From contig JACVTC010000045.1 of the NCBI GenBank assembly GCA_016946835.1, forward strand, positions 280,501 through 344,500: 64,000 nucleotides of DNA, in the 5' to 3' direction. This document shows positions 28,118 to 49,931 of the stretch, in pieces. Within the stretch, counting starts at the first letter, position 1; every line of letters begins with the position of its first letter. This stretch comes from Neocallimastix lanati (nom. inval.). Lineage: Eukaryota > Neocallimastigomycota > Neocallimastigomycetes > Neocallimastigales > Neocallimastigaceae. The position numbers and the translations under genes are program-made. The notes under the pieces were generated by a model. It worked only from the letters and a program-made list of their open reading frames with translations. It ran no database searches and was not told the origin of the DNA.

Positions 28118-28842
28118 TGTAATGATTCTATCAAATAAATTAATAAATTTAAATAACAGAATTATTAACTACAATTTAATAATTAAATAATATTATTAAA
28201 TTGAGAATTTAAATATACTTATCTAAAAGAGTTTATTACAACAAAGTAGTAAGGCAGTACACGCAAAATTCATTCAATTAAAACTGTTTTGTTATAAATT
28301 TATAATACGTTTTATTAATAATTAAAAATACTTTATTTTAAAATTTTTTAAAAGATAAAATATAATTTAGTAAAGAAAAAGTTATAAAGTGTTTTATTTT
28401 ATATTTTTGAATTATTATTACTACAGTTTGTTATAATAATAACTCTTGATTTCTCAAAGAGAACTCAAGAGTTTCTATTTATACTTTTAAATTTTAATAA
28501 ATTTGTTTCTAATCTTAACAAAGCAATTGTTTAGGAAAAGATTAGAAGAAAAACCTAAACAAGAATTCGACCGATAATCTATACATATCGGTCATCGAAT
28601 GTTTTAAGTAAAACCGATTGGTAAAATCGGGAAAAACCTTAAAATACTGATTGTCTAATATTAAATACACTAGAAATAGATAAAATAAACGAAAATATAA
28701 TAAAAATGATTTAAAATGAATTATTTAAATATTATTGGTTACTAATTAAATAAAATAACGAATTCATAAAAATAAAATCAATCTTTTACAAAAATTATTA
28801 AAACATGATTTATTTTAAATTAATATTATTAGAATGACAATA
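28118..28842 (+). repeat. Solo LTR, family S, copy S1 (725 bp)
   Basis: Begins TGTAATGATTCTATC and ends GACAATA, flanked by TTATG and TTATA (4 of 5 TSD bases). It is nearly identical to S3, which has the same length in inverted orientation. It folds into successive elements: H1 28172-28203, H3 28443-28471, an H-type pseudoknot 28509-28562, H5 28569-28593 and H6 28614-28630. No internal region or second LTR is near, so it is read as a solo LTR. Confidence 0.75.
28509..28562 (+). ncRNA. Candidate structured RNA: H-type pseudoknot of S1
   Basis: Helix A CTAATCTT (28509-28516) pairs with AAGATTAG (28538-28545); helix B TTGTTTAGG (28527-28535) pairs with CCTAAACAA (28554-28562). The order A, B, A', B' is a pseudoknot with loops of 10, 2 and 8 bases; the last loop is A-rich, as in pseudoknots with minor-groove triples. 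S2, S4 and S5 keep the topology with changed helix B sequences. Confidence 0.65.
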
Positions 28843-28906
28843 TTATATTATTAAAAACAAACTTATATTAAAATATTAAAAATATTTTTTTTTTCAATAT
28901 ATTATC

Positions 28907-30181
28907 AATTGTAGGTTTACACAAAGCTAAATCTATTATTACTATATATTCTATTTCAAAATATTTAAATATTCCTCTATTATTAGCTAATTGTACTTTG
29001 TCTCAAGTTTAAATATCTTGATAAATGGAAAGATTTAAATTGTATTATTTCCTATTTAGTTAATAATAATCCAAAATCTAGAAAATATACATGGATGAAA
29101 GAAAGTAGAACTCTTAAACGTAAACTAGAGAAAAGAAGTAGTAACTATAAAAAAATCAAAGATTTTTATTGGAAAAGAAATATGAAAAATTAATTCTATT
29201 AAAGCTGAATTTTATGACAAAAACAGATTCAAAGAAATATCAGATATTATAAAACTTTATTATGAATATCTTGAATTTCATATGGTTTCTATTGGCTACT
29301 GAGAGCACGAAGCGGATATATATTAGATGCTCGAATTGCTAAAGCTGCAAAAATAATAGATCAAATGTGTGTTAATTTTTATCCCTGATTTAAAAGTAAT
29401 AAACAATGGATAAGGCATTAGTTAATTGATTGTTCTTTTTTCAATCATATTCATTGTAAAATCAATGATAAATTTTTATTTTTATATAACGCTTTTAACC
29501 GTGGCGACCTAACAAATGATATCGTTAATAGTAATAATAGAAATAGAAATAATAGCTATAATAATAATATTTATAATAATATTAGTAATATCATTATTAA
29601 TAATGTTAGTAATAGTATTGAAAATAATGTGTATGTTAATTCTAGTTTGTGTGAAAAAGTGTTTAATTTCTTTCTTGGCGAAAGAAGTATTAATAACAGT
29701 ACAAGGGAATGGAAGGATCTATTTAAGTGCTGGATGAATTCAGGTGCATATTCTAATACTCCAATCTTGGTGGTTACTGCGGCTCTTTTTCAATTGATTA
29801 TACCTATTGCTATTGGCCAGCAGTAGTCTTTGTTCAAAAGGTTCAAATCAAATCGTACTATTATAACCAAGAGCGTCAATGCTGAAGAAATAATAAGACA
29901 GGCCAGTAAGGCTAGCGCAACCAATTAAGATCATAATTTCGTATTTTAAAATTATGATTAACATTGTAAAGTCAAAAATAATTATTATACTACAGTATTA
30001 TAATGCTCTTGTGAAGTCTTACAGATATTAATTAAATGAAACTAGAATACATTATACTATTATTTTATTTTATTTTATTTTTTTTTTTTTTTTTTTTATT
30101 CATTTATCTTTTTTTTCTTTTTATTAAATGTATTTTATCAAATATTTAATTAATAAAAATTAAAAAAGTTTGCTGCAGTTA

Positions 30182-30190
<9 letters not shown>
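28907..30190 (+). mobile_element. 5'-truncated, decayed LINE copy L2
   Basis: Matches the LINE from about its codon 1135 to the 3' end. The C-terminal peptide is recognisable (SRKYTWMKESRTLKRKLEKR, later NNSTREWKDLFKCW) but carries stops and frame changes, including loss of Cys in the zinc cluster. The 3' hairpin survives with nine of ten pairs (29981-30004). The unit ends in a short A run (30181-30190) followed by a TA repeat. Confidence 0.85.
29629..29826 (+). pseudogene. C-terminal LINE ORF fragment in L2
   Basis: An open piece of 65 codons corresponds to the last part of the LINE protein (VNSSLCEKVFNFFLGE to AIGQQ). It is only a remnant of the dead L2 copy. Confidence 0.7.
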
Positions 30191-30222
<32 letters not shown>

Positions 30223-30779
30223 ATCAATTTATTAATTGAAAATTTAAACAAAAGAAAAAAGCATTTGTTAAATTCTAGTTATTTCTAATAATAAATTATT
30301 ACGTTGGAAGTAACTTTCTTTATTAAATAAGCTTATAAATTATCTTGTAAATAGTAAACTTGTAAATAAATAATCTTCTTTTATTTCTTTTTTTTTTTTT
30401 ATTTTTATTTCATTTTTATTTCTTTTATTATTTACATTATATAATAGTTTAATTATTTTGAAAAATATAAATTAAAGTAAATATTTTCTTTATTTAGATT
30501 AGCATTTATATTTAATTTTGATTTATTAATCTTATTTAAAAATTTTATTATTATTTTAATGTTAAATTAAATTATTATCATATAAATAAGATTTTTTGAT
30601 AAAAAAAAATTTGTTATGATAAAATATTTTTAAAATTTTGTGTTATTTAAACATTTTTATTTTTATTTTGATATACTCTATTATTATTTCTAATTTTATA
30701 TTAGATTAAGGTAATAGATTCTTTGTATCAATTCAGTATATATTTTTCATATTCTTTTTTTTTATTTTATTATATTTTA
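30191..30779. other. TA repeat and AT-rich spacer
   Basis: A (TA)n tract at about 30190-30218 follows the LINE tail. The rest is A/T-rich without recognised features. Confidence 0.55.
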
Positions 30780-31130
30780 TTTTATTTCTGTTTTAGTTAA
30801 AATATTAATTCAAATAAATTATCTTTTTAATTAAATTCACTAATTATAGGAATATTAAAATATTTAGAAGTTAATATTTACTACAAAAAAAATATATTTT
30901 AAAAGGACTTTATTTGAAATCAAATTATTTCAATAATTAGATCTTAAGTAAATTAATTTTAAACTATTAACCCTATTTTAAAAAAAAAAAAAAAAACTGA
31001 AATAAAATAAAAAAAAAGACAGGGTCGTTCTGGATTTGAACCGAAGACCTATTGATCTGCAGTCAATTGCTCTACCACTGAGCTAACACCCCTTTCAAAT
31101 ATTGAAGCTGTCAGCTGCAGGATTTGAACC
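30780..31130. repeat. Segmental duplication, copy with intact tRNAs
   Basis: This stretch, including the tRNA-Cys gene and part of tRNA-Ser, matches 40255-40815. Shared blocks are TTTAAAAGGACTTT and TTAATTTTAAACTATTAACC. In the second copy both tRNAs have decayed. Confidence 0.7.
31021..31092 (-). tRNA. tRNA-Cys(GCA)
   Basis: The minus strand from 31092 reads GGGGTGT TA GCTC AGTGGTA GAGC, then ATTGA-CTGCAGA-TCAAT with anticodon GCA, a T arm with TTCAAAT, and ACGACCC closing the acceptor. D and anticodon stems are perfect. The acceptor and T stems each have one mismatch. A T run just downstream (31011-31019 complement) suits Pol III termination. No intron. Confidence 0.88.
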
Positions 31131-31190
31131 TGCGCGGACAGAGCCCACCAGATTTCAAGTCTGACTCCTTAACCACTCGGACAAACTGAC
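31109..31190 (-). tRNA. tRNA-Ser(UGA)
   Basis: From 31190 on the minus strand GTCAGTT pairs with AGCTGAC (one G-T pair). The anticodon arm TCAGA-CTTGAAA-TCTGG shows anticodon TGA. A long variable arm of the type II class (GGGCTCTGTCC) and a perfect T arm with TTCAAAT follow. The gene lies 16 bases upstream of tRNA-Cys with no T run between, so the two are probably co-transcribed. Confidence 0.92.
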
Positions 31191-31206
31191 TACTTCTCCA
31201 AATTTT

Positions 31207-32162
31207 TGTAATAATCATACTAAGTTCTATTACTAAATATAATTATTAACTTCAACTTAATGACTAATTCATTAAGTTGAGAAATAAAATAAAAATAAAA
31301 ATTTTACCTAAAAAAGAGTTTATTATAAAATTAATTATAATAACAACACAAAAACCAAAAGAAGAAATATTTGTATAAAGTTAAAGTTGGTTTTAAAAAT
31401 ATGTTTTTAAATAAAATATTTTATTAATTTATTAAAGTTTAAAATATAATATTGTTATTATTATAACTATCTTTTTTATATAATAATAACTCTTGATTTC
31501 TTAAAGAGAAATCAAGAGCCCTTTTTATATTTTTTTATTGAATTAAGGTTAAATAAAAAGTTTTTCTAATCTTAAAAATTATCTTATCTAGAAAAAGATT
31601 AGAAGAAAAAACTAGATAAGTTTTGATCGATATTCTATTCATATCGATCATCGTATATATTAAGTAAAACCAAATATATTATTTTATATTTGGATAAAAC
31701 CTTAATATATCGATTTTCTAAATTTTAATTTAGATCATCAAATAAAAGGAAAATAACTAATAACCGGAATGATCTAAATTATTCTATTTTTCTAAATATT
31801 ATTTTTAAAATCTAATCTAAACTTATTAACATAAAACTATCTTTAAAAAATACAGAAACTTATTAATTGTTCTTTTAAATGTACAATGTACAAAATAAAT
31901 AAAACTAATGTTTACATTAACTTAATAATTAAATGAATAACTAAATAAGATTAATAATATTAATAAAAGTATATATAATAATTATTTAAATAAATTTTTA
32001 ATATTATTTTAGTGTATGAATAATTATATTTTTAATAAATTTGATAATAATATTTCAATGTATGAATTAATTATAATTTAAATAAATTTATAATTATTAT
32101 CAATAATTATAAAGACTAAGAAATAGTAATTATTTATTAATAAATAATTATTATTTCTTACA
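31207..32162 (+). repeat. Solo LTR, family S, copy S2 (956 bp)
   Basis: Begins TGTAATAATC at 31207 and ends TTCTTACA at 32162, flanked by ATTTT and ATTTG. Hairpins: H1 31253-31279 (10 perfect pairs), H3 31490-31518 (12 perfect pairs), pseudoknot 31566-31620, H5 31625-31649, H6 31670-31693 and H7 31727-31780 (12 perfect pairs). It is inserted 16 bases upstream of the mature 5' end of tRNA-Ser. Confidence 0.75.
31566..31620 (+). ncRNA. Candidate structured RNA: pseudoknot of S2
   Basis: Helix A CTAATCTT (31566-31573) with AAGATTAG (31595-31602); helix B CTTATCTAG (31583-31591) with CTAGATAAG (31612-31620). Helix B differs from S1 at several positions on both strands yet still pairs fully. Confidence 0.65.
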
Positions 32163-32165
32163 ATT

Positions 32166-33451
32166 TGATACGGGGTGTCACTAAATACCTTGTATTTCCT
32201 ATTAAATACTCTTAATAATAATAAAATAAAATTATTATTAAATATTCTTATTAAAATCTTTTATTAATATCAAATATAATAAAAACTATTATTAAATATT
32301 CTTATAAATTTCTTTTATTAATATCAAATATAGTAAAAATTATTATTAAATATTCTTATAAAATTCTTTTATTAATATTAAATATAATAAAAATTATTAT
32401 TAAGTATTCTTATAAATTTCTTTTATTAATATTAAATATAATAAAAATTATTATTAAGTATTCTTATAAATTTCTTTTATTAATATTAAATATAATAAAA
32501 ATTATTATTAAATATTCTTTTATTAATATCAAATCTAATAAAAATTATTATTAAATATTCTTATTAAAATCTTTTATTAATATCAAATCTAATAAAAATT
32601 ATTATTAAATATTCTTATTAAAATCTTTTATTAATATCAAATCTAATAAAAATTATTATTAAATATTCTTATTAAAATCTTTTATTAATATCAAATATAA
32701 CAAAAATTATTATTAAATATTCTAATAAAAAAATCTTTTATTAATATTAAATATAATAAAAATTATTACTAAATATTCTTATTAAAAATTATATATAATT
32801 TAAATCATTACTAATTCTTATTTTTATATTAAGAATAATAAAAACCTATTTCAATAAATATTTGATATAAAATACAGAATTATAAGTTTCTGTATAATAT
32901 TTTCTAAACCTTTGAAATAAACTAAAAATAAAACAAAAATCAAAAATAAATTAAATCTTTATTAAAATAAAAACGAACTAAAATACAGAAGAATTTCAAT
33001 AATAAAAATGATCTAAAATACAGAAAATATCAATTCTGTATAATTCTCTCTCTGAAAAACAATATCAAGAAGAAGCTACCGCCCGGAATGCCCTTCGTGA
33101 TACAATCTCTAAATTAATTTTTTATATTTTAATTTAATAAATCTTATTTTTTTTTTTTTTAAAAAAAATAATTTAAAATAATAGTTAAAAATTAAAATAA
33201 AATAGTTATAATAGTTTTTTTTTTATAAAGAATATATTAATAATAAATAAAATGTATTAAAATAAAAGTATAAAAAGAAGAATAAATTTCTTTCTTTTTA
33301 ATACTTGGAACAAATAATTTTAATTTTAAATTTAAATAAAGAATATTTTAAAATTTAATTTTTTTTCTTGTTTCCAAATTTATTTTTATAGTTATGTGTT
33401 AATATTATTTTTTTTGTTTTGAATATCTTAGTGTTTCAACCCCAGCCCGTA
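32166..33451 (+). mobile_element. Element U1, TGATACGGG-ended (solo LTR or terminal-inverted-repeat element)
   Basis: The unit starts TGATACGGGGTG and ends CAGCCCGTATCA, terminal inverted repeats with one mismatch, and before S2 arrived it was flanked by AATT on both sides. Its first 600 bases are a tandem array of about 55 bp. A GC-richer island lies at 33050-33110 with an open frame reading YQEEATARNALRDTISKL, too short to classify. A second copy, U2, in the opposite orientation, carries the same array. Whether it is an LTR or a DNA element is open. Confidence 0.55.
32195..32790 (+). repeat. Tandem array, unit about 55 bp
   Basis: About ten to eleven copies of a unit containing TTATTATTAAATATTCTT and TTTTATTAATATCAAAT. 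Units differ by small indels and point changes. The same unit forms five inverted copies at 58829-59104. Confidence 0.88.
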
Positions 33452-33762
33452 TCAAATTAAATATATTTTTTTTAACTCATTTTTTCATACTTATTTTTTT
33501 TTTTTTTTTGTTAAGATAATAACTGAATTTCCATTTAATTCAATTTCAATTTCAATTTCAATTTAAATTTCAGTAATTCAGTTATTTGAATTTCAATATT
33601 AATGAATAATAATATATAATAATTATTATTAAATTAACTTTATTAAAATATTTAGGAATTAGTCTAGGCCAACTAATTGACTAAATATTATTAACATATT
33701 GAAATTAATTTATTTTAAATAATGTAAACACGTGATTGTCATATTAAATTAATTTTTATATT
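33452..33762. other. AT-rich spacer with TTTCAA microsatellite
   Basis: A short (TTTCAA)n run lies at about 33538-33565. ATATT at 33758-33762 is the left TSD of E4. Nothing else recognised. Confidence 0.6.
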
Positions 33763-34033
33763 TGTTAGAGACGAAATTGTTACATACATTTATTTATATT
33801 ATTAATTTATATCAACCAATAATTAATCTTTAATTAAATTAAATAATGTTAACTAAGATATAAAATATGAAATAAATTTAATGTAAAAATACCTCTTAGA
33901 AAAAAATATATATATCCTCATAATAAAAATTATTAATAAACATTTTATAATATTACTCATAACATAAAATACTTTGTTATATTGTTTTTATTAATACAGT
34001 GTTTGTCTTAGATTTATAAATTTGTTTTTCACA
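33763..34033 (+). repeat. 5' LTR of E4
   Basis: TGTTAGAGACG at the start, TTTTCACA at the end, directly followed by the PBS. A solo copy of this family lies at 52920-53188. Confidence 0.95.
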
Positions 34034-34075
34034 GATTAAGAGTCTCAACTCTTCAGTTGAGCTATCAATAAAGCT
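34034..34075 (+). promoter_or_regulatory. Primer-binding site of E4 with D-arm extension
   Basis: GATTAAGAGTCTCA follows the LTR and is complementary to the anticodon arm of tRNA-Lys(CUU). The next bases, ending CAGTTGAGCTA, resemble the complement of the D arm. Starting pairing in the anticodon stem rather than at the CCA end implies a half-tRNA primer, as in Drosophila copia. Confidence 0.78.
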
Positions 34076-34343
34076 AAGTTGGAATAAATAAAACATAAAA
34101 TCAATTTATCATTAATATCCTAACTAATAAAATTATATTTTTATTATTTTCATAATATTCATTATAGAAATAAAAAGTAATAACCAATATTAATAGACAA
34201 ATATTACAAAACAAAGGTGAGAATATATTGTAATAGGCCATAGTTATTTTTGATTTTTTAAAAAAAAAAAAAAAAATATATATACATAATTATATAAATA
34301 AAAATAATAAAATAAATAAAATAAAAAATAAAATAAAATAATA

Positions 34344-34560
34344 GTCAACTAGTTCATCTAAGTTGAGAATTATTGAAAATAAAAAATAAATGCAAACTAG
34401 CTAAGTTGTAAATAATTGATATTAAAATATAAATAATTGTCAACTAGCTAGGTTGAATAAAAATAAAAATAAAATAAATATCAACTAGTTAAGTTGTAAA
34501 TAATTGACTATTAAATAAAAATAATTGACAACTAACTATGTTGAAAATAATTGAAATAAA
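34344..34560 (+). repeat. Leader hairpin array of E4
   Basis: Five spaced units of the type CAACTAGTTAAGTTG occur between PBS and gag. CAAC(T) pairs with (A)GTTG in most of them, while the spacers vary in length. Confidence 0.75.
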
Positions 34561-34983
34561 TAATAGTAATTTATGTCATTAAAACTAGGGGTTAAAAATA
34601 AATAAAACTTAAATTAAATTAATATAGAATAAAAGCAATCAAATACATTTATAGTTATAGACAAAGTAATTTCAATATTCACAACAATATATATATATAC
34701 AAAACAAAATTTGTTACTATTAATAGTACCCAATGAATTTAAATGGTTTATATTTTTTATTTTTATATACGAATTAAAGGACATATATAATATAAACAAA
34801 ATTTATTTTTAATATAAATATATATAATTTTAATATATAATTAATAAAATAATAAAAATAATATATATAAAATAGAATATCCTAAAACACAAAATTCTCT
34901 TCTGATATTAAATAATTTAAAACAATATTAAAAATTAAATATAAGATATATTAATATTACTTCAATTATTAATAAAGAATAAA

Positions 34984-37506
34984 ATGACACCAAGAAGAAT
35001 TAATCAAGTAATCAACGTGGAAGCTACTGACAATCCAAGGAAGATAGTGAATTTCAATTACTCTGAGAATTTCAATAGAGTAATTGAATTAACAACTGAA
35101 AATTATCCGAGATGGAAAGGAAACATCCTTTATTTATTGACCATAAATGATCTAGTACTTTACGCCACTAAAGAAAAAATTAAGAAATTAAGAAAGAAAG
35201 ACATCAAAGAGGACATATTAAACTACACGGAAGACCAATTTGACAACACATTAGTATATGCTAAAAATACTAATGAAAATGACATTAACAACGATATTAC
35301 AGCAAAGTGGATGATACTTAACACCTTAGGAAAAAAGACTCAAGAAATAGTAAAGGGAAATGGAAAAACAGCTCATCAAGTTTGGAAACTCTTAGAGAAA
35401 TCATTTACTAAATCAAAGGAATCTAGAAAGTTAGAACTAAAGAAAAAACTAAACGAGTTAAAGTTCGAAGAAGAACAAGATATAAATATATTTATGGCAG
35501 ATCTTCAAAACACTATTGAAGAATTAGAAAAAATAGATGAAGATCTAAGCACCAGCACAAAAGTCGGTATTTTGAATAGGGCGCTACCGGAAAACCTTCG
35601 ATTCATCAATGTATTTCAATACAACAGTGATTGGGAAAAATGTACCGATTATGTAAAAAATGTAATACCACAAATCTTGTTATCCAATCTAACAGAATCA
35701 AATTACATTAAAGAAAACAATAATAAAAACATTTTTTCAGCTGAGAGTACATACAAAAAGAATCAAGAAAAATCAAAACGATACATCAAGAATATCAATA
35801 AAAATACAAAACGACCAAATATAAAATGCAACTACTGTGGTAAAAGAGGGCATTTCTTTTACAATTGCTTTAAAAGAAAAAGAAACCAATTAAGAAGACG
35901 AAGCAATACAAATTTTAAAAGAAAAAACAATTATAATAAATCAAATATAAAAAACAAAAAGGTTATAGATAACATTCAAAGAAACAACTATAACGATATA
36001 TATGCAGAGTGTTTTTCTCAAGATTACAACACAAATGAATCAAATACTATAGACTTAATAGATAATAAAAATAAATCAACAAAGTCTATTAATAAAGAAT
36101 TAATCTGTTGGACCTTAGATTCAGGAGCTTCAATCAACATCACCAACAGACTAGATAAACTCACAAATATTAAATATTGCAATGAAAAAATATTTTTTGC
36201 AAATAATCAATCGATTATCATTAATAAAGTAGGCACCTTCATAGGATACATTAATGAATACGAATTTACAATCGAAGATGTTTATTACTCACCATTAATC
36301 AATAAAAATTTAATATCAATTGGAAACTTAATTAAACAAAATTATAAAATTTTATTTAACACCAATCACAACAAATCATATGTCACGATCTATGACAAAT
36401 ACCAAAACAAAATCGCCAATATTATTTCAAATGCAAATAACACATTCAACATTTGGTTATCAACCCAACGTATATTTCTACACGACAATAATACCAGAAA
36501 CACAAATGATGAAATCAACTATATTAACATGAAGATTCCTTATAAATTAAATTTATGGCACAGAAGGTTTAGTCACTTCGATATAAAATCAATTAAAAAC
36601 AAATTACTTAAGACAGATATCAAATTAAAATGTCCTCTATGTGCTCAATCCAAGATTAAAAACAAACCTTATTCAAAAAATATCAATACAACTAAGCATA
36701 TCTTTGAACTACTACACTTGGACTTGGTAGGTCCATTACCTGAATCCATTCACGGAAACAAATATTTTTTTACTATTTTAGATGATTACTCTAGATACGG
36801 ATGGGTTCTTTTTCTAAAAGGTAAAGATTACACATTTCCCGCTTTTTATAAATGGTTCAATAACGTAAAAAATTTGTACAATACTAGAATAAAATATTTA
36901 CGGTCTGATAATGGTACGGAATTCCGCAATAATAACTTCAAGGACTTCTGTCAATCTTACGGAATCATTCAACAATTTACTGTTCCACACAATCCTCAGC
37001 AAAATGGAAGAGCTGAGCGATTCAATGGAACTCTAATCTCATCTGCCAAAGTAATGCTTAACGATGCTAAGCTGAGTAAACACTTTTGGGAAGACGCCGT
37101 TCAAACCTCTAATTATATACATAATCGACTACCACATCGTGGAATCAACAACATCATCCCATATGAACGGCTAAACAAATCAAAAGTAGATTATTCAAAT
37201 ATAAGAGTATTTGGATGTAAAGTCTATTACTACATCCCAAAATCCTTTAGAACAAAATTTCAAAATAATGCTTCTCCTGGTATTTTTCTTGGTTATTCAG
37301 ATAACCCCAGAGCTTATAAAATTTTAGACACATCTAACAATAAAATAATACTCTCACGTAGTGTTGAATTTTTTGAATCCAATCCTGGAGATTTTTATAC
37401 GACTAATTGCTGTACTGACCATCAAAATTTTATTCCCAATTATGAAATTTGGAGGAATAGTAGTTCTTATTACTACAATAACTCCTACACAAAAAAATCC
37501 TATTAA
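34984..37506 (+). CDS. E4 Gag-protease-integrase
   Basis: The 840-residue frame begins at ATG 34984 (MTPRRINQV). Gag of the UBN2/copia type covers about 15-270 (NYSENFNRVIELT, LNRALPENLRFINVFQYN). A zinc knuckle C-X2-C-X4-H-X4-C (CNYCGKRGHFFYNC) starts at 282. The protease motif DSGA starts at 379. Integrase begins with an HHCC zinc finger (LWHRRFSH to CPLCAQ, about 520-558), then the DDE core in LDLVGP, RSDNGTEF and NPQQNGRAERF, all intact. It ends after VEFFESNPGD in a polar tail at TAA 37504. It makes the particle, processes it and inserts cDNA. Confidence 0.93.
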   Translation: MTPRRINQVINVEATDNPRKIVNFNYSENFNRVIELTTENYPRWKGNILYLLTINDLVLYATKEKIKKLRKKDIKEDILNYTEDQFDNTLVYAKNTNENDINNDITAKWMILNTLGKKTQEIVKGNGKTAHQVWKLLEKSFTKSKESRKLELKKKLNELKFEEEQDINIFMADLQNTIEELEKIDEDLSTSTKVGILNRALPENLRFINVFQYNSDWEKCTDYVKNVIPQILLSNLTESNYIKENNNKNIFSAESTYKKNQEKSKRYIKNINKNTKRPNIKCNYCGKRGHFFYNCFKRKRNQLRRRSNTNFKRKNNYNKSNIKNKKVIDNIQRNNYNDIYAECFSQDYNTNESNTIDLIDNKNKSTKSINKELICWTLDSGASINITNRLDKLTNIKYCNEKIFFANNQSIIINKVGTFIGYINEYEFTIEDVYYSPLINKNLISIGNLIKQNYKILFNTNHNKSYVTIYDKYQNKIANIISNANNTFNIWLSTQRIFLHDNNTRNTNDEINYINMKIPYKLNLWHRRFSHFDIKSIKNKLLKTDIKLKCPLCAQSKIKNKPYSKNINTTKHIFELLHLDLVGPLPESIHGNKYFFTILDDYSRYGWVLFLKGKDYTFPAFYKWFNNVKNLYNTRIKYLRSDNGTEFRNNNFKDFCQSYGIIQQFTVPHNPQQNGRAERFNGTLISSAKVMLNDAKLSKHFWEDAVQTSNYIHNRLPHRGINNIIPYERLNKSKVDYSNIRVFGCKVYYYIPKSFRTKFQNNASPGIFLGYSDNPRAYKILDTSNNKIILSRSVEFFESNPGDFYTTNCCTDHQNFIPNYEIWRNSSSYYYNNSYTKKSY
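37349..37506 (+). other. +1 overlap between integrase and RT frames of E4
   Basis: Both frames are open here. The zero frame ends TAT TAA C; skipping the T of the stop gives AAC GCA AAA in the RT frame. A T5 run (GAT TTT TAT) earlier in the overlap is another candidate point. E5 has the same arrangement. Confidence 0.6.
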
Positions 37507-39448
37507 CGCAAAACCAGCATCAATATTTATTCCAGAAAACAGCATAAACAAAAACACAGTTCATTTCAATAAACAAGGAAAAGACCAAAACACTAATAAC
37601 ACTTCTACTCTAAATACAACTAATAGCACAAATCAACGCAAAGTTACCAGCACTATCAAAAATAACAACATCAATAATAATCAAAATAACACTATTAATA
37701 CTACTCAAAGCAATGATAATAACATCAACACTAATCAAACAAAAAACAACAACAATCATTTAAATACGAACATTCATTCTGAAACAAACGATATGAATAT
37801 CAACAGTATTATAAGCAACCAAAACAATAAAGTTAAAGGAAACCAAACACCTAACAATAATAATACTTTTATATGTAACAATCAAGTATTAAATAAAAAT
37901 TTAAGAGAACCTTTAGACTATGACGATATATACAACCTCGAAGATCAAGAAGAATGGTTTAACTCTGCTGAAAATGAATTTGGCAACTTGAGAGACCTAA
38001 AAGTTTATGAACAAGTAAATAAAGATGAAATCCCAGAAGAAGCTAATATTATCAAATCCAGACTAATATTCAAATACAAAAGAAATTCTAAAGGGGACAT
38101 AATCAAAAGAAAAACAAGACTTGTAGCAAAAGGGTTCACACAGCAACATGGAATAGACTATAAAGATACATTTGCACCCACCTTAAAACTAGATTCGATA
38201 AGAATATTTACACATATAGCTGCAAGAAATAATTTCCAAATAGAACAAATAGATGTTAATGCTGCTTATTTAAACGCTCATCTAAAGGAAGAAATATACA
38301 TGGAGCCTCCAAAAGGACATCCCGATCACAAGAAATACATCTGGAAACTCAAGAAAGCCATATATGGTTTAAAGCAAAGCGGAATGGAATGGAACAATGA
38401 ATCAAATGGGCATCTACTAAACATTGGCTTCAAAAGATTGACTTGTGAACCATGTATATACTTTACAACAGATAAACATAACAAGATTACATGCCTCATA
38501 GCTGTTTATGTGGACGATATACTACTTGCAGGTAACAAAGCAAAAGTAGATCAAATCAAAAATATGATAAAAAATAAATTCAAAATAAAAGAAATCGGTG
38601 AAGTCAATTTCATAATAGGAATAAAATTTGTAAAGCATAAAAACGGTTATTTCTTAAATCAAGAAAGATATATAAACGATATAATTATCAAATATGGATT
38701 GTCAAGTGCTACTCCTATTCGTAATATAACACCAATTGAAAATGAAGAATTAAGAAAAACGAAAATGAATGAAACTACTTATAGAAGCGCTGTTGGAAGC
38801 TTATTATACTTAGGTATCTGTACTAGACCCGATATATTATATGCAGTATCCAAAGCGGCACAAAAATCAAAAGAACCTAACTTGGAAGATTGGGAAAATT
38901 TAAAACGAATATTAAAATATTTAAAGGGAACAATAAAATATGGTATTAACATATCAAGAAACTCAAATGTCAAAGCTTTCGTAGATGCAGACTACGCTGG
39001 GGACACAAAAACAAGAAGATCGACTACAGGATTTGTAATTACAATAGGAGATTCACCTACTAGTTGGTGTTCAAAACTACAGCATTGTGTATCGACTTCC
39101 ACAGCTGAGGCCGAATATTATAGTCTTAGCGAATGTAGCAAACATTGCATGTGGTACATAAATTTATTGAAGGAATTAAAATACAACATCAGTGGTATTG
39201 AAGTCAACATAGACAATAAAGCCGCAATCTATAATGCAAAAAACCAATCGATTAATCCAAGAACAAAGCATATGGACATAAAATTGCACTATGTAAGAGA
39301 ATTAGTAAAGAGCAATAAAATAATATTGAAATATGTAAAATCTCAAAACAATTTAGCAGATGGCTTTACGAAATATCTAAACGGATCTTCCATGGATAAA
39401 TTTAGAAATTCATTATTAACACAGCCAATGGACTTAAAAATTTATTAA
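37361..39448 (+). CDS. E4 reverse transcriptase-RNase H
   Basis: This +1 frame is open from 37349 and overlaps the end of the integrase frame by about 155 bases; it has no credible own start (GTG at 37361), so it is probably reached by frameshifting. An Asn/Thr-rich linker is followed by RT from about 37900: RLVAKGFTQQHGIDY, IDVNAAYLNAHL, AIYGLKQ and catalytic VYVDD near 38510. RNase H shows DADYAGD, STSTAEAEYYSLSE and NLADGFTKYL. Length and motifs are complete for copia RT-RH, and it ends 70 bases before the purine tract. Confidence 0.92.
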   Translation: MLNFLNPILEIFIRLIAVLTIKILFPIMKFGGIVVLITTITPTQKNPINAKPASIFIPENSINKNTVHFNKQGKDQNTNNTSTLNTTNSTNQRKVTSTIKNNNINNNQNNTINTTQSNDNNINTNQTKNNNNHLNTNIHSETNDMNINSIISNQNNKVKGNQTPNNNNTFICNNQVLNKNLREPLDYDDIYNLEDQEEWFNSAENEFGNLRDLKVYEQVNKDEIPEEANIIKSRLIFKYKRNSKGDIIKRKTRLVAKGFTQQHGIDYKDTFAPTLKLDSIRIFTHIAARNNFQIEQIDVNAAYLNAHLKEEIYMEPPKGHPDHKKYIWKLKKAIYGLKQSGMEWNNESNGHLLNIGFKRLTCEPCIYFTTDKHNKITCLIAVYVDDILLAGNKAKVDQIKNMIKNKFKIKEIGEVNFIIGIKFVKHKNGYFLNQERYINDIIIKYGLSSATPIRNITPIENEELRKTKMNETTYRSAVGSLLYLGICTRPDILYAVSKAAQKSKEPNLEDWENLKRILKYLKGTIKYGINISRNSNVKAFVDADYAGDTKTRRSTTGFVITIGDSPTSWCSKLQHCVSTSTAEAEYYSLSECSKHCMWYINLLKELKYNISGIEVNIDNKAAIYNAKNQSINPRTKHMDIKLHYVRELVKSNKIILKYVKSQNNLADGFTKYLNGSSMDKFRNSLLTQPMDLKIY

Positions 39449-39477
39449 CTTAAGTTTTTTAAAATAAAAAAAATAAT

Positions 39478-39517
39478 CAATTATAACCTTAAAAAATAGG
39501 TTATAATTGTGGGGGAA
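39478..39517 (+). promoter_or_regulatory. PPT-proximal stem-loop and polypurine tract of E4
   Basis: CAATTATAACCT (39478-39489) pairs perfectly with AGGTTATAATTG (39498-39509) around eight bases. The purine tract GGGGGAA follows at 39511-39517 and abuts the 3' LTR. Confidence 0.75.
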
Positions 39518-39788
39518 TGTTAGAGACGAAATCGTTACATACATTTATTTATATTATTAATTTATATCAACCAATAATTAATCTTTAATTAAATTAAATA
39601 ATGTTAACTAAGATATAAAATATGAAATAAATTTAATGTAAAAATACCTCTTAGAAAAAAATATATATATCCTCATAATAAAAATTATTAATAAACATTT
39701 TATAATATTACTCTTAACATAAAATACTTTGTTATATTGTTTTTATTAATACAGTGTTTGTCTTAGATTTATAAATTTGTTTTTCACA
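39518..39788 (+). repeat. 3' LTR of E4
   Basis: 271 bp, two substitutions from the 5' LTR. TSD ATATT follows at 39789-39793. Confidence 0.95.
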
Positions 39789-40254
39789 ATATTAATTTAT
39801 TATCAAAATCTTTGCATATTATAATTTAATTATAAAATATAATACTTAGCTATATCAGATTCTTATATTTTATTTATATTAAATATTTATATTATTATCT
39901 TATTTTATAATATCAATATCAAATTTATATTGATACTATTACATATTCATATTAATAATTAATATTTTAATAATTAATTATTTTATATAAATACATGTTT
40001 AAATCTTTTGATTAATCCTTTGTAGGATTATTATAATTTAAATTATAGTAATAATTATAAAAAAATAATGTAATAAAATATTATTAAGATTAAATAAAAT
40101 TTATATTTTAAATAAAAACTTAATTATAAAATTTACTAATAACAATATGTTTTAAATAAGAGTAAAATTAAATTATTAATTAATTACTATAATTTGGCAT
40201 CTTGACCTAATCGTTAAGACCAAATTATCTCAAAACTTTGACATTTTTTGTCTT
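39789..40254. other. AT-rich spacer after E4
   Basis: No gene recognised. Beyond about 40255 similarity to the tRNA-bearing duplication begins. Confidence 0.55.
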
Positions 40255-41915: not shown

Positions 41916-42765
41916 TTAGAATTGAAAATTTAGACTAAGTATAACACAAATTTTACCATTAATGATAAGAAAACTATTATCAAGAGAGAAAATTTTTAGT
42001 TTAATGGTGTCCTTGAATGTTTCAAAGTCAATTTGCAAGTATATGTCATATAAAAAATTATCATTCTTATATTTTTGGTTAATTTGATAGGTAAAAGAGG
42101 AAACATAATTAATGAAAGTATGAAAATATTCCAGATGTAAACTACTAAAAGAAATTTCAACTGAGGTAGAATCACTAAAGAGTGTGTAATAAGATCTATG
42201 AGAAAAGAATATCAGGTTTACCATTAGGTGGTCGGGTACAACGAACAATTTTTAAATTAAATTCCAAAAGGAGAAGTGACCAGCGGACAAGTCTTTCAGC
42301 CAACTTTTCTGTTTTTTTTTTTTTGGTAAAGAAGGTTACAATGGTCAGAAAAAACGGTGAATGGTTTATCAATGCCCTTTAGTAAATATCTCCAGTATTC
42401 CAAAATAGAAATGATTGCTAGGAATTATTTGTCATAAATTAGATAATTCTTTTCAACTTGAATAAGTGATCTTGAGAAAAACGAAAATGGTTGGGTTTTG
42501 TTGTCTTTTAGACAAAGTTTGGAAAAAGAATGGCATCACTGGCAAAGTTGCTATGGTCAGTTTCGAGTATGAAAGGAAGATCTCCATTAGAATAAGCAAG
42601 AATTCGAGGGGCTGAAAATTTTGATTTGATTAGGTCAAAGGATTTTTTGAGTTTCAGATAACTAACCGAATTTTATATTTTTCCTATGAAGAGAGGAAAG
42701 AAGATAAGATAGTTTGCAAACCCGGGGCTAAAACGGATATAATAGTTGATGAGTCCTTTCAATTT
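41916..42765 (-). pseudogene. RNase H part of E7
   Basis: The minus strand encodes GLINYYIRFSPGFANYL, then SAPRILAYSNGDLPFILETD (RNase H first Asp), then weaker traces to VVPDHLMVNL, which matches the RPG-type end of gypsy RNase H. Several stops interrupt it. The antisense frame at 42182-42382 is a shadow. Confidence 0.75.
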
Positions 42766-44010
42766 TTTTTTGGGGGGTTGGTTTTTATCTTATTAATATT
42801 TAATTTGAAAAATTAAAATTTCTAATTAAATTACTAGGTAAATACATATTGTATTAATTATATATTTAATTTAAAGGTTCTATAAAAAATTAAAATATTT
42901 TTCCTATAAAATTTTTAGCCTTTTTAAAAATTATATTTGATATTAAAAATATATTAAAACTAATTATTACTATTTATTAATATAGAAGAAACACAAAAAC
43001 ATTTTATAATAATATTTTTATATTTATTTTTTAAGAAAACTATTTAATTCATTTTATTATAATATTAATTAATATTTATTAATTATTAAAGATTATTTTT
43101 AATTAAATAATAATTAATGTAAAATACTTTATGGTTGTATTTTAATAATTAATGTGTAACTAAATGACAAGGGTTTAATATTTAATATTTTTAGTAGTTA
43201 ATATTTAATTGTTATTAATCTAATAAAGTATTTTAATTTTTAGAAAAATTTTAAAATTATTTATATTTTAACATTAAATATAGTATTTTATAATTTATAA
43301 TATCTATTTAATTACTGTTATTTTAATTGATAAATTTTAAATAAAACTATACTAAACTATTAAATAAAATTATACTAAAGTAATAATAATATTTATTATT
43401 AGTAAAATTAATGATATAAATATTTATATCATAATTTATATTAATATTGTAATTGTTAAGAATTAATTTAATATAGTTTTGTTTTAGAAGAATATCTCAA
43501 GACTAACGATGTACTAATTTATGATATTATATAATATAAAAATTATTATAAAAATATAATTATTAATAATTAATATAATAAAATAATATTTCTTATAATA
43601 AAAAATTAATTTGAGTATTTAAAATTATTCTGAAATAGTAATTTTTATTAATATAGAATTAATTATTCAATTTTGAATTATAAAAATTATTAATTAATTG
43701 CATCTGTTGTTTAATGGAAAATCAGTTCTTATTTTCAAATGATCATTACTACTTTAATATTTAAATTAGGAGCATGATTTTAATATCATTGTATAGTTTA
43801 TTCAGAGTAATTTCAGAAAATGTACACAGAATCGCTCATTCTCTATATATAAAGAAGATATATGGATGATTTTAAAATTTATAGTTGCAACTAATTTTTA
43901 TTTAATAATTTTTGTATTATTTTTAGTTATTATATATATTATTGGGTAAATATTGTCATTCTGAAGTTTTATTTTGAATAAAAATTTCATGTAAAATACT
44001 ATCAGCTATT
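42766..44010. mobile_element. Unidentified AT-rich insertion in E7 (about 1.25 kb)
   Basis: It separates FLGLV (minus, near 44020) from the following GLINYY codons at 42760. Edges show a diverged duplication (TTGACAAGTCCT and TTGATGAGTCCT). Inside there is only A/T-rich sequence and a G run at 42771-42776; no family recognised. Confidence 0.5.
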
Positions 44011-44286
44011 TGACAAGTCCTAAGAATGATTGTATCACTTTAATATTTGTAGAAGGAAGACTTTCTAAAATGGATTAAACTTTATTCCGATTTATACATA
44101 TACCTTCAGGAGAAATTCGATGTCCAAGGAAATCGAAGAAATGAGTATAAAATACTCATTTTTCTAAAATGTGAATAGTCTATCTTCTCTAAGTCTTAGT
44201 AGTGCTTTGACTAAATGTGTATAATTAGTACTAAGATCTAGAGAGAAAATAATAATAACGTCAATGTAGCTGTAAATGAAGATTCT
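44011..44286 (-). pseudogene. RT palm end and connection part of E7
   Basis: Minus-strand peptide IFIYSYIDVIIIFSLDLSTN corresponds to the VVYLDDILIFS catalytic block with the first Asp changed (YID rather than LDD), and SISLDIEFLLK-like text to FLGHRISPEG. It continues upstream into 45039-45420. Confidence 0.65.
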
Positions 44287-45038
44287 TATTTATATCAATT
44301 TAATTTTTAATCGTGGAAAATCGTTTCTATCAAGAAAAATATTAGAAAAGAAAAAACTAGATAGAATTTTGATTTGTGTTTTAATTTCATCAATCATTAA
44401 TTAATAAGAAAACCTTAAAAAAGGGAGAAATTTTATTAACTATTAATTACATATGTTCATATTAGTAATTGTTCGATCACGAGTATGATTAAATAATTGA
44501 TTCTTTTAATTTTCTTAATTAAATGATCAATAAATAATTTAATTTTTCTTAATTAATTATAAATATTATCATTTAAATATAATTTATTTTTTCTTGATAA
44601 AATTATTATCATTTTAATACAATAATACGTAATTAAAATTTAATATATATAATTAATTATTGATTATTTAAGATAAAATTTAAAACAATAATATTAAATT
44701 AATAATTAGGATGTAATAAAATTAATAAAATTATTAATAAAATTTTAAAACTTAATAAACTTTAATTTATAATTTTATAATAAAGAATAATAATTATTTA
44801 AGAAAATAATTATAATTCTTTATATGTACGGTGATTTAGTACTAATTTCTTAATTTACAAAATTAGATTTTGTAAAAGTGAATATAAGCACAAATACGAA
44901 ATAAAATAAAAGTTAAAAAAAAAAATCTAAATAAAAATATTTTATTAGAAACATTAAAATTGTTTTATAAAAAACTATGATTTAATTTTAAAAATTTATA
45001 ATTTTATTTATTTAACTTTTAAATAATATCTTCAATAA
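44287..45038. mobile_element. 752-bp insertion in E7 with 19-bp target duplication
   Basis: AGCTGTAAATGAAGATTCT occurs at both edges (44268-44286 and 45039-45057), interrupting the RT codons. The insert is A/T-rich; near 44313-44440 it shows a block resembling the pseudoknot region of family S (AAAAAACTAGATAGA), and near 44825-44920 a block also found at 60785-60870. A 19-bp duplication does not suit an LTR element. Confidence 0.55.
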
Positions 45039-45420
45039 AGCTGTAAATGAAGATTCTGAGAAAGTCTTCCAGTACGTCATTAATAAAGTATTAGAAAACA
45101 GATGGAACATTCCTCAGGTCTAATAGTTTAATCAAGTACTGAAAGTGGCCATATTTACAATACTCGTCTCCTTCTTTGATTCTTATAAGATTATAGGCTA
45201 GTCGGATATGAAGTTTTGAAAATACTCTACTCTGACTGAGAAGTTCAAGAATATCGTTGATGAGTAGTAAAAGGTATGAAACTTGTATAATGATCTCGTT
45301 GAGTCTCCCGTAGTCAATATACATGCCTAATTCACCAGATTTCTTAGGTACGAAAAGTAAAGATACAGTAACAGGAGATTTGAATTTTCTAATGACATCT
45401 TCGGAAAGATTTTAATTAGT
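45039..45420 (-). pseudogene. RT fingers/palm part of E7
   Basis: Minus frame from 45420: VTVSLLFVPKKSGELGMYID, then a Leu-Asn block, VFSKLHIRLAYNLIRIKEGD and KYGHFQYLIKLLDLRNVPS. These match gypsy RT motifs (KKDGSLRMCVDYR, KIDLRSGYHQIRI, GHFEYLVMPFGL) in order. It stops where the insertion at 45038 begins. Confidence 0.82.
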
Positions 45421-45456
45421 AATTTATTTATTTATTCATTTAATTTTAACATATAA

Positions 45457-46181
45457 TATTGTCATTTTATTAATATTAATTTAAAATTAATCATGTTTTA
45501 GTAATTTTTGTAAAAGATTAATTTTATTTTTATGAATTTGTTATTTTTTTTAATTAGTAACCAATAATATTTAAATAATTCATTTTTAATCATTTTTATT
45601 ATATTTTCGTTTATTTTATCTATTTCTAGTGTATTTAATATTAGACAATCAGTATTTTAAGGTTTTTCCCGATTTTACCAATCGGTTTTACTTAAAACAT
45701 TCGATGACCGATATGTATAGATTATCGGTCGAATTCTTGTTTAGGTTTTTCTTCTAATCTTTTCCTAAACAATTGCTTTGTTAAGATTAGAAACAAATTT
45801 ATTAAAATTTAAAAGTATAAATAGAAACTCTTGAGTTCTCTTTGAGAAATCAAGAGTTATTATTATAACAAACTGTAGTAATAATAATTCAAAAATATAA
45901 AATAAAACACTTTATAACTTTTTCTTTACTAAATTATATTTTATCTTTTAAAAAATTTTAAAATAAAGTATTTTTAATTATTAATAAAACGTATTATAAA
46001 TTTATAACAAAACAGTTTTAATTGAATGAATTTTGCGTGTACTGCCTTACTACTTTGTTGTAATAAACTCTTTTAGATAAGTATATTTAAATTCTCAATT
46101 TAATAATATTATTTAATTATTAAATTGTAGTTAATAATTCTGTTATTTAAAGTTATTAATTTATTTAATAGAATTATTACA
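45457..46181 (-). repeat. Solo LTR, family S, copy S3 (725 bp)
   Basis: Minus-strand LTR from TGTAATAATTC (46181) to GACAATA (45457), with TTATA on both sides. Nearly identical to S1 including the pseudoknot (45737-45790, minus) and H5 (45706-45730). The two copies are inverted relative to each other and about 17 kb apart. Confidence 0.78.
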
Positions 46182-46897
46182 TATAACTGTTATGGTTCGG
46201 GTTTATTAAAAGTATTTTTATTTAATTAATTATTTTTTTTTTCTGCCTGTCCACATTTTAATTATTGAAAAACTTCACTTATTTATACTTTTTGAAAAAA
46301 AATAAATATGTAAAACCTTTCTACATTTTATCATCATATTTAAAAAAAATAATTCACTATTAGTAATTACTTCAAATTTTATACTAAATAAAATTAACTA
46401 ATTCGTAAGTATTTTATTTTAATAAATTTTGTTTATATAATTTTATATATAATTTTTCATATACTAAAACTAAATTATTTAATATATAAAATAAATTTAA
46501 AAATTATAATATATTTAATATTTATTATTAATCAATTAAGATTTGATTTTATTTATGGGGAATAAAAATATTTATAAATTAAATAATCAATTTAAAAATA
46601 AAATAAAATACTAAAAAGAATACAATTTTAATATTGATATAATATAATAAAAATATAATAATATACTTGAAAATAAAATAAAATATTAATATTGATAATA
46701 GGCACTTTAATAAAATAATAAAATTTAAGGTTATATTATAGATATTGATATTAATAATTAAAATATAGAATTATTAATAAAATTTTAGTAACTTTTTAAT
46801 AAAAATATAGAAAAAAAATTATATTTAAAAATATTTTAGTATAGAAAATATAGTAAAGTAATATTAAGTAAAGAATAATATAATGGATTCTAAAGTA
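46182..46897. other. AT-rich spacer
   Basis: No gene recognised; AAGTA at 46893-46897 is the TSD of the next LTR. Confidence 0.5.
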
Positions 46898-47646
46898 TGT
46901 TAAAATTAAGATATAAAATAGCTTTATAATTAATAACGTTACTAGGTTAATATGTTGAATTATATATTAATAATCCCAATAATAATTAATTATTAATAAA
47001 TTGGTAATTAAATAAAATAAGATAATTAATTAAATTATTTAAACACTTAATATTTAAAGAATAATTTAAACAATAATTTCTTTGAAAGATTTATAAAAAA
47101 TATTTATTTATTTTAATAAAAGTTGAATTATTAGTATATAATTATTGTGAACACAATAACCTTACAAAGAACATAAAAGATAGATTTTTACATCTTTCTT
47201 TTATACTTTGTAAGTTACATAATAATAGTATTTAATTATAAGATATTAATAATATAGTAATATGAATAAAATATTAAGATAATAACAATATCGATATGTT
47301 TAAAATATTTAATGTAACTAAATAAATTTAATTTGTAATTATATAATTAATTTGAATAATTAAAAATAGAAGTTAATATATATGATGTAAACATATATAT
47401 AAACATAATATAAATAAATACATGTGAAGTCATATGTAGATAATTGAAATTATTAATATAAATCTTATTTACTAATATTTTCAGAATTATTAGACCTAAG
47501 ATAATTCTTTAAATATTAAATAAGAATTTATATTAATTATTAATTATTTAAATATATATAGTATTTATAATTAAATAAATAATATTTTCAACTATTGAAA
47601 TGTAAATAACTGAAATTGAGATTTCAACTCAGTTATAATTTCAACA
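46898..47646 (+). repeat. Solo LTR, family R, copy Ra
   Basis: TGTTAAAATTAAG at the start, TTTCAACA at the end, and an exact TSD AAGTA (46893-46897 and 47647-47651). Inside, CTTACAAAG and ACTTTGTAAG form the arms of a hairpin of about 20 bp (about 47161-47214), kept in Rb and Rc. Confidence 0.75.
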
Positions 47647-47747
47647 AAGTAAGTTGAAATTCTAATTAATAATCCATTATATATTCGTTCTTTACCACAA
47701 TGTAATAATTTAATTATAAAGTTAATTATAATTAAATTATTAACTGC

Positions 47748-47983
47748 TGTTAAAATATAAATATTAAAGTTTTGTATATATATAATATTAAGGAATTTTG
47801 TGATATATTTTAATATATATTTTCAAGTATAAGACCAATAATATATTTGTGTAACCTTAATAAAATAACTATAAATATTTTATAATATAAATCTCTTCAA
47901 CAATAACTCCTTTTAATAAAATAGACGAAATTAGATTTTCACATTTTTAAAACATAATCAAAGGAGATTTCTTATATTTAACA
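47748..47983 (+). repeat. E3-like solo LTR nested in S4
   Basis: TGTTAAAATATAAATATTAA to TTTAACA, 236 bp, similar along most of its length to the E3 LTR. TSD ACTGC at 47743-47747 and 47984-47988 is exact. Here the LTR ends in CA. Confidence 0.8.
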
Positions 47984-48346
47984 ACTGCAACTTAATAATA
48001 ACTTTATAAAAATTATTATTCAATTAAGAAAAATAAAATAATAAATTTATACTTATCTAAATATTGAAGAGTTTATTATAACTTAATTATAATAAACAAA
48101 TACCAAAAGTTACACCAATTCGTTACGAGGAAAATTTTTTATTTATTTTATTTTTTATTTTAAAATTTATTTTATTATTAAACTATCTTTATTAAATTAG
48201 AAATTTAAATATTTAATATTTTTATTATTATTTTATAATTGTTATATTATAATCGTTATAATAATAACTCTTAATTTCTCAAAGAGAACTCAAGAGCCTT
48301 ATTTATATTTTTTTTGAAATATAAGGTTAAATTAAAAAAGTGTTTT

Positions 48347-48400
48347 CTAATCATAACAAATCTTATCTAGGAAAAGATTAGAGAGAAAAACCTAGATAAG
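48347..48400 (+). ncRNA. Candidate structured RNA: pseudoknot of S4
   Basis: Helix B CTTATCTAGG (48362-48371) pairs with CCTAGATAAG (48391-48400), ten pairs. Helix A has one mismatch (CTAATCAT with AAGATTAG). Confidence 0.6.
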
Positions 48401-48952
48401 AATTTTGATCGATATTCTATCCATATCGATTATCGTATCAATTAGGTAAAAGCAATTACTTTTAAGAAGTGATTAGGAAAAACCCTAATTAACCGATTCA
48501 CTAATCTAATTTAATTGATCGAAAATAAAAGAATAAAATAATAAAAGATATTTTGATCATAAAATCATAAATTTACAAATAAGGAAAATAACATATTAAT
48601 AATATTAATAAACAAAATACAGAATACATTATTAAATACATAATAGAATACATAATAGAATACATAATGTGTTTGTTTACAATTTAATTAAATAAATAAG
48701 CTAAAACTAATAAATTTAATAATTAAATGTTTAATTAAATAAACTATAATTATTTATAAATGAATAAATAATAATTAATTAAATAAATTTTGTTATATTA
48801 AATTAATGAATATCTAAAATTGAATTAAATAAATTATTAATAATATTTAAATGAATAAATATAATATAATTAAATAAAGTTATAATAATTATAACTTCAC
48901 TAAGAAAATATAATTATTTTATTTAAAAATAATTATAGATTCTTATACACAA

Positions 48953-49931
48953 TGTAATAATTCTATTAAGAACTAACTCAAAACAGAATTATTAACTACA
49001 ACTTAACGACTAATTCATTAAGTTGAGAAAATAGAAAATAAAATAAAATAAATCTTTTACCTATAGAGTTTATTATAAAATTAATTATAATAATAGCACG
49101 CAAAGCAAAAAAAGAACTATTTGTATAAATTTGATTTTAAAAATATGTTTTTTGAATAAAATATTTTATTAATTTATTAAAGTTAAAAATATAAAATTGT
49201 TATTATTATAACTATATTTTTTTATAATAATAACTCTTGATTTCTTAAAGGGAAATCAAGATCCTTATTTATATTTTTTTTTGGAAATAAGGTTAAATAA
49301 AAAAAAGGTTTTCTAATCTTAAAAAATATCTTATCTAGAAAAAGATTAGAAGAAAAAACTAGATAAGTTTTGATCGATATTTTATTCATATCGATCATCC
49401 TATATATTAAGTAAAACCAAATATATTATTTTATATTTGGATAAAACCTTAAAATATCGATTTTCTAAATTTTAATTTAGATCATCAAATAAAAAGAGAA
49501 ATAAATAATAACCGGAATGATCTAAATTAATCTATTTTTCTAAATATCATTTTTTAAAATCTAATCTAAACTTATTAACGTAAAACTATCCTTAAACTAA
49601 AATGTAGAATTATAAAGAATACAGAAACTTATTAATTGTTCTTTTAAATGTATAATGTACAAAATAAATAAAACTAATGTTTATATTAACTTGATAATTA
49701 AATAAATAACTAAATAAAAATAATAATCTTAATAAGTGTACTTATAATAATTATTTAAATAAATTTTCTAATATTATTTAAGTGTATGAATAATTATAAT
49801 TTTAATAATTTGATAATAGTATCTCAATGTATGAATTAGTTATAATTTAAATAAATTTATAATTATTATTAATAATTATAAAGACTAAGAAATATTAATT
49901 ATTTATTAATAAATAATTATTATTTCTTATA
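48953..49931 (+). repeat. Solo LTR, family S, copy S5 (979 bp)
   Basis: Starts TGTAATAATTC, ends TTCTTATA, flanked by CACAA and CCCAA. Close to S2 in sequence and hairpins: H1 48999-49025, H3 49234-49262, pseudoknot 49313-49367, H5 49372-49396 and H7 near 49470-49530. It adjoins S4 with only the 5-bp target between. Confidence 0.75.
49313..49367 (+). ncRNA. Candidate structured RNA: pseudoknot of S5
   Basis: Helix A CTAATCTT (49313-49320) with AAGATTAG (49342-49349); helix B CTTATCTAG (49330-49338) with CTAGATAAG (49359-49367). All pairs intact. Confidence 0.65.

Follow-up and report, generated by a model that had tools for sequence, protein, structure and literature searches.

A stretch of 64,000 nucleotides from Neocallimastix lanati (contig JACVTC010000045.1, positions 280,501 to 344,500 of the forward strand; hereafter the window) carries five long terminal repeats (LTRs), S1 to S5. 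They are probably the LTRs of self-priming Ty3/Gypsy retrotransposons whose U3 region codes for an RNA module: two stems, P1 and P2, around a U-rich internal loop, then a hairpin, P3, and an H-type pseudoknot made of the interleaved helices P4 and P5. The structure is real and very likely selected. As to its function, we think it probable that it is an RNA-stability module of the type known as the element for nuclear expression (ENE), placed near the 3' end of the transcript and joined to a pseudoknot. All copies analyzed come from one genome of 199 Mb in 762 contigs.

Layout and covariation of the module

A sequence-only reading of the window had described these repeats as solo LTRs with a conserved chain of hairpins (H1, H2, H3, H5, H6) and a pseudoknot (helices A and B) kept by compensatory changes. 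All five LTR copies were found, and the pairings spelled out for helix B, H5, H6 and H1 are present in the sequence. The strand that was read is, however, the antisense of the element: gag-pol, the TATA box and the primer-binding site (PBS) all lie on the other strand. The pairings exist on the sense strand too, since sequences able to pair on one strand have complements able to pair on the other. The module is located in U3, upstream of the TATA box, on the sense strand, where the order is P1, U-rich internal loop, P2, P3, P4/P5, TATA, a start-site hairpin, and R-U5 with further hairpins; P2 is the former H6, P3 is H5, P4 is helix B and P5 is helix A. A TATA-like box, defined by a loose pattern, lies downstream of the pseudoknot in 136 of 136 full cores.

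In S2, P1 has 14 pairs and one bulge, and the pseudoknot loops are about 9, 3 and 9 bases long. P2 has 6-10 pairs in most subfamilies seen and about 4 in one; P3 directly abuts P1. By eye, the U5 hairpin H2 can be recognized clearly in S2 and S4, whereas in S1/S3 it is weak. A covariance model of 17 copies (alignment A1; 17 of 19 reference copies used) finds the module at six places in the window, one of them decayed. The features are:

28118..28842, minus strand: S1, solo LTR, flanks TTATG/TTATA
28507..28654, minus: S1 ENE-like hairpin, P3 and pseudoknot (covariance model)
31207..32162, minus (sense = minus): S2, Ty3/Gypsy LTR, flanks ATTTT/ATTTG
31650..31714, minus: S2 P1/P2, stems around the U-rich internal loop, ENE-like
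31625..31649, minus: S2 P3 hairpin (H5)
31566..31620, minus: S2 H-type pseudoknot P4/P5, loop 1 U-rich and mostly invariant
31522..31529, minus: S2 TATA box, 35 nt before the primer stretch
31490..31518, minus: S2 hairpin over the predicted start site (H3; direct sequence)
31483..31494, minus: S2 12-nt PBS-complementary stretch, likely self-primer near the RNA 5' end
31319..31344, minus: S2 U5 hairpin (H2; direct sequence)
31253..31279, minus: S2 U5 hairpin near the LTR 3' end (H1; direct sequence)
44305..44446, minus: decayed further copy of the module (covariance model, E 4.4e-5)
45457..46181, plus: S3, solo LTR, inverted to S1, flanks TATAA/TATAA
45645..45792, plus: S3 ENE-like hairpin, P3 and pseudoknot (covariance model)
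48028..48949 (left end approximate), minus: S4, LTR
48345..48500, minus: S4 ENE-like hairpin, P3 and pseudoknot (covariance model)
48953..49931 (right end approximate), minus: S5, LTR, flanks CACAA/CCCAA
49311..49464, minus: S5 ENE-like hairpin, P3 and pseudoknot (covariance model)

An nhmmer search over the retrieved loci gave 143 matches, 136 of them complete (the 7 partial ones were dropped) and 83 distinct. The null for covariation was a custom script, not R-scape: on a sequence-only MAFFT alignment of the 83 copies and a FastTree tree, each site's own change count was re-placed on the branches in 300 simulations. Decay is common among the copies, and recombination between LTRs could have distorted the tree. 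Double-change cells number 320, as against 58 ± 21 under this phylogeny-aware null (maximum 143). By helix, the counts are 116 vs 22 for P1, 65 vs 11 for P2 and 69 vs 13 for P3; P1, P2 and P4 lie above all 300 simulations and P3 above all but one. Watson-Crick cells amount to 3397 of 3881 (null 2648 ± 94), and the extra Watson-Crick pair types, 21 overall vs 7, were reached by none of the simulations. In a second alignment (A2; 52 of the 83 distinct copies) 91.1% of cells are paired, compared with 84.3% after shuffling and 27-41% after displacement of the partners by 1-3 columns, and double-change cells number 209 vs 87 in shuffles. The three top-scoring of all 10,878 column pairs of the 83-copy alignment belong to the structure (P1, E 0.92; P4, 1.33; P3, 4.75), as do 5 of the best 17.

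Compensatory change, the core of the sequence-only reading, thus extends beyond a phylogeny-aware null in four of the five helices (P1-P4) and not in its helix A. With regard to the H-type pseudoknot, P4 covaries (70 double-change cells vs 11) while P5 shows no double change, though 97.6% of its cells are paired. P5 has no covariation of its own because it hardly varies; its sites changed 1.2 times each, those of P1-P4 2.9-4.1 times on average.

The fold also stands out in energy. The minimum free energy of the S2 core is -40.8 kcal/mol vs -20.1 ± 3.3 in 200 dinucleotide shuffles, none of which is as low (z -6.4). The z-score is -3.2 for the core of S3 (= S1), with 1 of 200 shuffles as low, and -3.9 for that of S4, with 0 of 200. 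Across the genome, 144 places match a 22-base piece of the pseudoknot (reversed, 0) and 306 the ENE-like pattern (reversed, 3). No Rfam family matches the module; at the gathering threshold the window gave just two tRNAs, and positions 31400-31800 gave one chance match (E 3.6). The pseudoknot pattern found no match in viral contigs, where the ENE pattern is too loose to be informative.

Carrier elements and probable self-priming

The identity of the elements comes from a related full-length copy, L039, in which two LTRs of ~949 bp that are 99.9% identical enclose a gag-pol frame read from the minus strand of the retrieved piece. Pfam, searched with four separate pieces of the frame, finds Ty3_capsid, Retrotrans_gag, RVP_2, RVT_1, RT_RNaseH, Integrase_H2C2, rve (scored below its own cut-off) and SH3_Tf2-1. 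This is the Gypsy order; Gag, protease, reverse transcriptase, RNase H and integrase follow one another between the LTRs, as expected of Ty3/Gypsy, in this one copy. The Tf2-1-like SH3 domain is a likeness to the Tf elements.

Among the first 100 of the 306 places with the ENE pattern, at least 12 same-strand pairs were counted by eye at 5.6-6.4 kb, the spacing of full-length elements. In at least 10 of these 12 the exact LTR-PBS junction, sought among the first 100 of its 161 places in the genome (reversed, 0), lies 489-490 bases downstream of the ENE start of the 5' copy; the pairs in contigs 68 and 70 are without it among the matches listed. The description of solo LTRs with short target duplications agrees with the 5-bp flanks, which match fully in S3 and at 4 of 5 bases in S1, S2 and S5 (by eye). 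S1 and S3 are inverted to each other and 98.1% identical over a 744-column alignment. That they are the terminal inverted repeats of a large DNA transposon was considered and rejected: each is an apparent solo LTR with flanking duplications of its own, and contig 155 has the same pair in a duplicated copy of this stretch. There is also a third inverted pair, in contig 390, with different flanks. LTRs of this family were seen by eye directly at the end of another, S4 and S5 at 48940-48953 and an S4-type LTR adjoining the L039 element at 600-612 of that locus (flanks CAAAT/CAAAT).

The elements look self-primed in the manner of Tf1 and Tj1 of fission yeasts, where, according to passages of PMC4600332, the PBS is complementary to a part of the LTR close to the 5' end of the mRNA. 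The 12-nt PBS, ATAATAACTCTT, is complementary to the LTR stretch AAGAGTTATTAT, which would be the 5' end of the mRNA. Of the 136 full cores, 15 have the PBS downstream of the LTR; the others are solo, cut off by the end of the fetched stretch, or changed. These 15 fall in six subfamilies (L039/L040; L111; L016/L049; L031/L032; L090/L096; L044/L050/L061/L062/L069/L086), and the sequences diverge from the second base past ATAATAACTCTT. The primer motif is present in 111 cores and absent from the other 25; it lies 34-36 nt past the TATA-like box in 105 of the 111, and in the remaining 6 the loose TATA pattern matched elsewhere.

The start-site hairpin H3 pairs a U3 stretch with the self-primer stretch, so only the 3' copy in the RNA could form the hairpin; our guess is that it hides that copy of the primer. 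The self-primer has a second complement in U5, the stretch TTATAATAAACTC at 31317-31329 on the minus strand, which recurs at the corresponding position of several other LTRs. The RNA 5' end could pair with it rather than with the PBS, as it does in the minimum free energy folds of several copies.

The U3 module looks exchangeable while R and the PBS persist. L005 and L008 have the same start-site hairpin without an ENE-pseudoknot core up to 700 nt upstream of the PBS junction, and L005 and L065 have the junction with no core within 700 nt upstream.

Tj1 inserts upstream of tRNA genes (PMC4600332), whereas here ARAGORN, run with the bacterial code, finds tRNA genes in 3 of 92 loci: L059, L001 (= S2 of the window) and L039. 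Targeting of tRNA genes as a rule, as for Tj1 or Ty3, which the positions of S2 and L039 had suggested, is therefore rejected. The tRNA genes beside S2, for tRNA-Cys and tRNA-Ser, lie at 31020-31190, and S2 starts 16 bp upstream of that for tRNA-Ser.

The ENE reading and its alternatives

While the stems vary, the loops do not. Each side of the internal loop has three U that are the same in all 83 copies, and the 5' side a fourth that is kept in 74; in pseudoknot loop 1, 7 of 9 columns are invariant in all 83. The pairs closing the U loop are mostly constant as well (G-C in 47 of 52 copies on the P1 side, C-G in 48 of 52 on the P2 side), while other stem pairs change freely. The P1 bulge is present in 81 of 83 copies with a varying base, the other two having a deletion there. 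Selection at the level of RNA is indicated because the stems change but the loops do not, because the bulge is kept, and because the module is expected in the U3 transcript. A splice-site reading of the loop 1/P5 stretch was rejected, as its AG is not kept among subfamilies (by eye).

The P1-U-loop-P2 unit shows ENE anatomy: opposed U tracts, bordered by G-C pairs, form an internal loop that two stems enclose. Li et al. 2025 (PMC12501189) place U tracts on both sides of the ENE internal loop, with adjacent G-C pairs that are essential in the Arabidopsis Copia93 element Evade, and cite Tycowski 2016 for some 200 ENE motifs, mostly in plants and fungi and strongly tied to LTR retrotransposons. 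Deletion of the Evade ENE lowers RNA stability and new insertions (PMC12501189). The likeness consists in a stem whose U-rich internal loop has G-C beside the U tracts and which here is predicted to lie, as in Evade, toward the 3' end of an LTR-retrotransposon RNA. The differences are that Evade, a Copia element, has its four U tracts in the spacer before the 3' LTR, whereas the elements here are Gypsy, with two U tracts within U3 and a hairpin and pseudoknot after them, and that in Evade the triplex and its effect on stability are demonstrated, whereas here they are predicted.

The statement of the sequence-only reading that no LTR of this architecture had been described is accordingly too strong for the hairpin, ENEs being known in LTR-retrotransposon RNAs (PMC12501189). 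In regard to the combination of ENE and pseudoknot it stands within the open-licence literature, including passages of two reviews, where no report of it was found; nor was a matching paper found there on Neocallimastix together with Gypsy elements. The kind of element is thus known, and its joining to a conserved pseudoknot is probably the new part. Genomic RNAs of Ty1 and Ty3 have pseudoknots too, those of Ty3 predicted in the GAG and POL frames (passages of PMC11381356), whereas here the pseudoknot is in U3 with one of two helices covarying.

Since the module is in U3, it should occur only near the RNA 3' end, predicted to lie ahead of R and the poly(A) tail. For such a site a role in 3'-end stability or polyadenylation is more fitting than one in packaging at the 5' end or in the initiation of reverse transcription. 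P1, the U-rich internal loop and P2 would act as the ENE, the two U tracts clamping a poly(A) stretch as U.A-U triples. The clamp would slow deadenylation and decay, and slower decay would leave more RNA to serve Gag-Pol and reverse transcription. Next in line, P3 and the H-type pseudoknot would probably brace or extend the 3' structure. We infer the transcription start, the poly(A) site, poly(A) binding, the RNA stability and the role of the pseudoknot.

Several results speak against an ENE in these RNAs, or against selected RNA structure as such. i) Covariation: no column pair of the 83-copy alignment reaches E<0.05 among all 10,878, so that the absence of covariation, which was to count against the sequence-only reading, is found for single pairs and clearly not for helices. 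The extra pair types of P3 and P4 taken alone were reached by 17 and 22 of the 300 simulations. Among the 52 copies, pairs changed on both sides number 22 vs 18.4 (12 of 500 shuffles reach 22) and further pair types 54 vs 54.2 (312 of 500 reach it). An A.C mismatch interrupts P2 in the commonest subfamily (by eye, among the matches listed). ii) Strand: Watson-Crick pairs changed to G.U vs A.C 62 vs 45 times, and the split into terminal and internal branches gives 44:30 (p 0.13) and 18:15 (p 0.73), neither of them significant. The sense strand folds better than the antisense in 77 of 83 cores; shuffles of 14 representatives have the same bias, so folding energy says nothing on the strand. iii) Anatomy: in many copies a single G separates the closing G-C pair of P1 from the U tract; the U tracts are often 4, not 5, long; and a crude text search finds at least 4 U on both sides in 58 of 83. 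The window is ~80% A+T, which makes U runs cheap. iv) Transcript: its poly(A) site and its start site are predicted positions.

A selected U3 RNA structure with another task is an unlikely alternative, yet the strongest of those considered. The task could be nuclear export, Gag binding or packaging, strand transfer or translation, with the U loop binding a protein or another part of the RNA. Covariation and invariant loops ask for no more than some RNA role, and pseudoknots are important for replication in the RNAs of Ty1 and HIV-1 (passages of PMC11381356); set against this, a single internal loop with U tracts in both strands and mostly constant G-C pairs closing it is what characterizes an ENE, and the 3' position is in keeping with this.

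It is improbable that the arms are DNA-level inverted repeats without an RNA role, be they promoter or enhancer sites, cruciforms or protein-binding palindromes. The module does occupy the part of the promoter region immediately before TATA, and neither strand test demonstrates an RNA role. Protein sites, however, keep their sequence, whereas here the stems change on both sides and the U loops and most of loop 1 are fixed; interleaved arms and a kept bulge are unsuited to cruciforms. That template switching in reverse transcription or replication homogenized the arms of an imperfect palindrome and so mimicked compensation is very improbable: the copies do arise by reverse transcription, and little distance separates the arms, but switching would not fix the U loops and loop 1 in 83 of 83 copies, nor the P1 bulge in 81.

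The ENE-type reading, which we prefer, has a bolder extension. In the triple-helix pseudoknots of telomerase RNA a U-rich loop 1 faces the A-rich strand of stem 2. A similar arrangement is conceivable here, where, by inference from sequence only, UUCU could sit on AAGA of P5. The module might then be a composite device: the near-invariant loop 1 (UUUUUCUU) would form major-groove triples with P5 and dock the stacked P1-P3 domain, and the resulting two-triplex lock on the 3' end would guard the tail and keep the 3' self-primer copy folded away, so that reverse transcription would start only from the 5' end. We regard this as speculative and quite unlikely.

Other features of the window and significance of the module

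Besides the LTRs and their tRNA neighbors, the window holds a tandem array with a 54-bp unit at 32149-32837, starting at the end of S2, and a Copia element at 33763-39788 with LTR stretches 99% identical and gag-pol in two overlapping frames. A long interspersed nuclear element (LINE) at 961-5397 has endonuclease and reverse transcriptase domains in one long frame, and the broken 3' part of a related LINE lies near S1 at 29011-29828. At 7473-9658 a bacterial-type PGA_cap protein extends over two overlapping frames, the second running into a GDSL lipase. Antisense remnants resembling Gypsy pol were seen by eye between S1 and S3, at 42000-45410.

If the ENE-type reading is true, poly(A) clamping extends beyond the plant Copia example to a Gypsy group with many copies, inside the LTR itself, and new copies and solo LTRs would spread the clamp through the genome. 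The group has at least one young-looking member, L039, as judged from its nearly identical LTRs. Many natural variants occur in one genome, which makes the stems, the U tracts and the pseudoknot directly testable. The composite two-triplex lock, if true, would be a new kind of retrotransposon 3' end. On the ENE-type reading one LTR would also join a 3'-end stability device with self-primed reverse transcription, and the two could be studied together.

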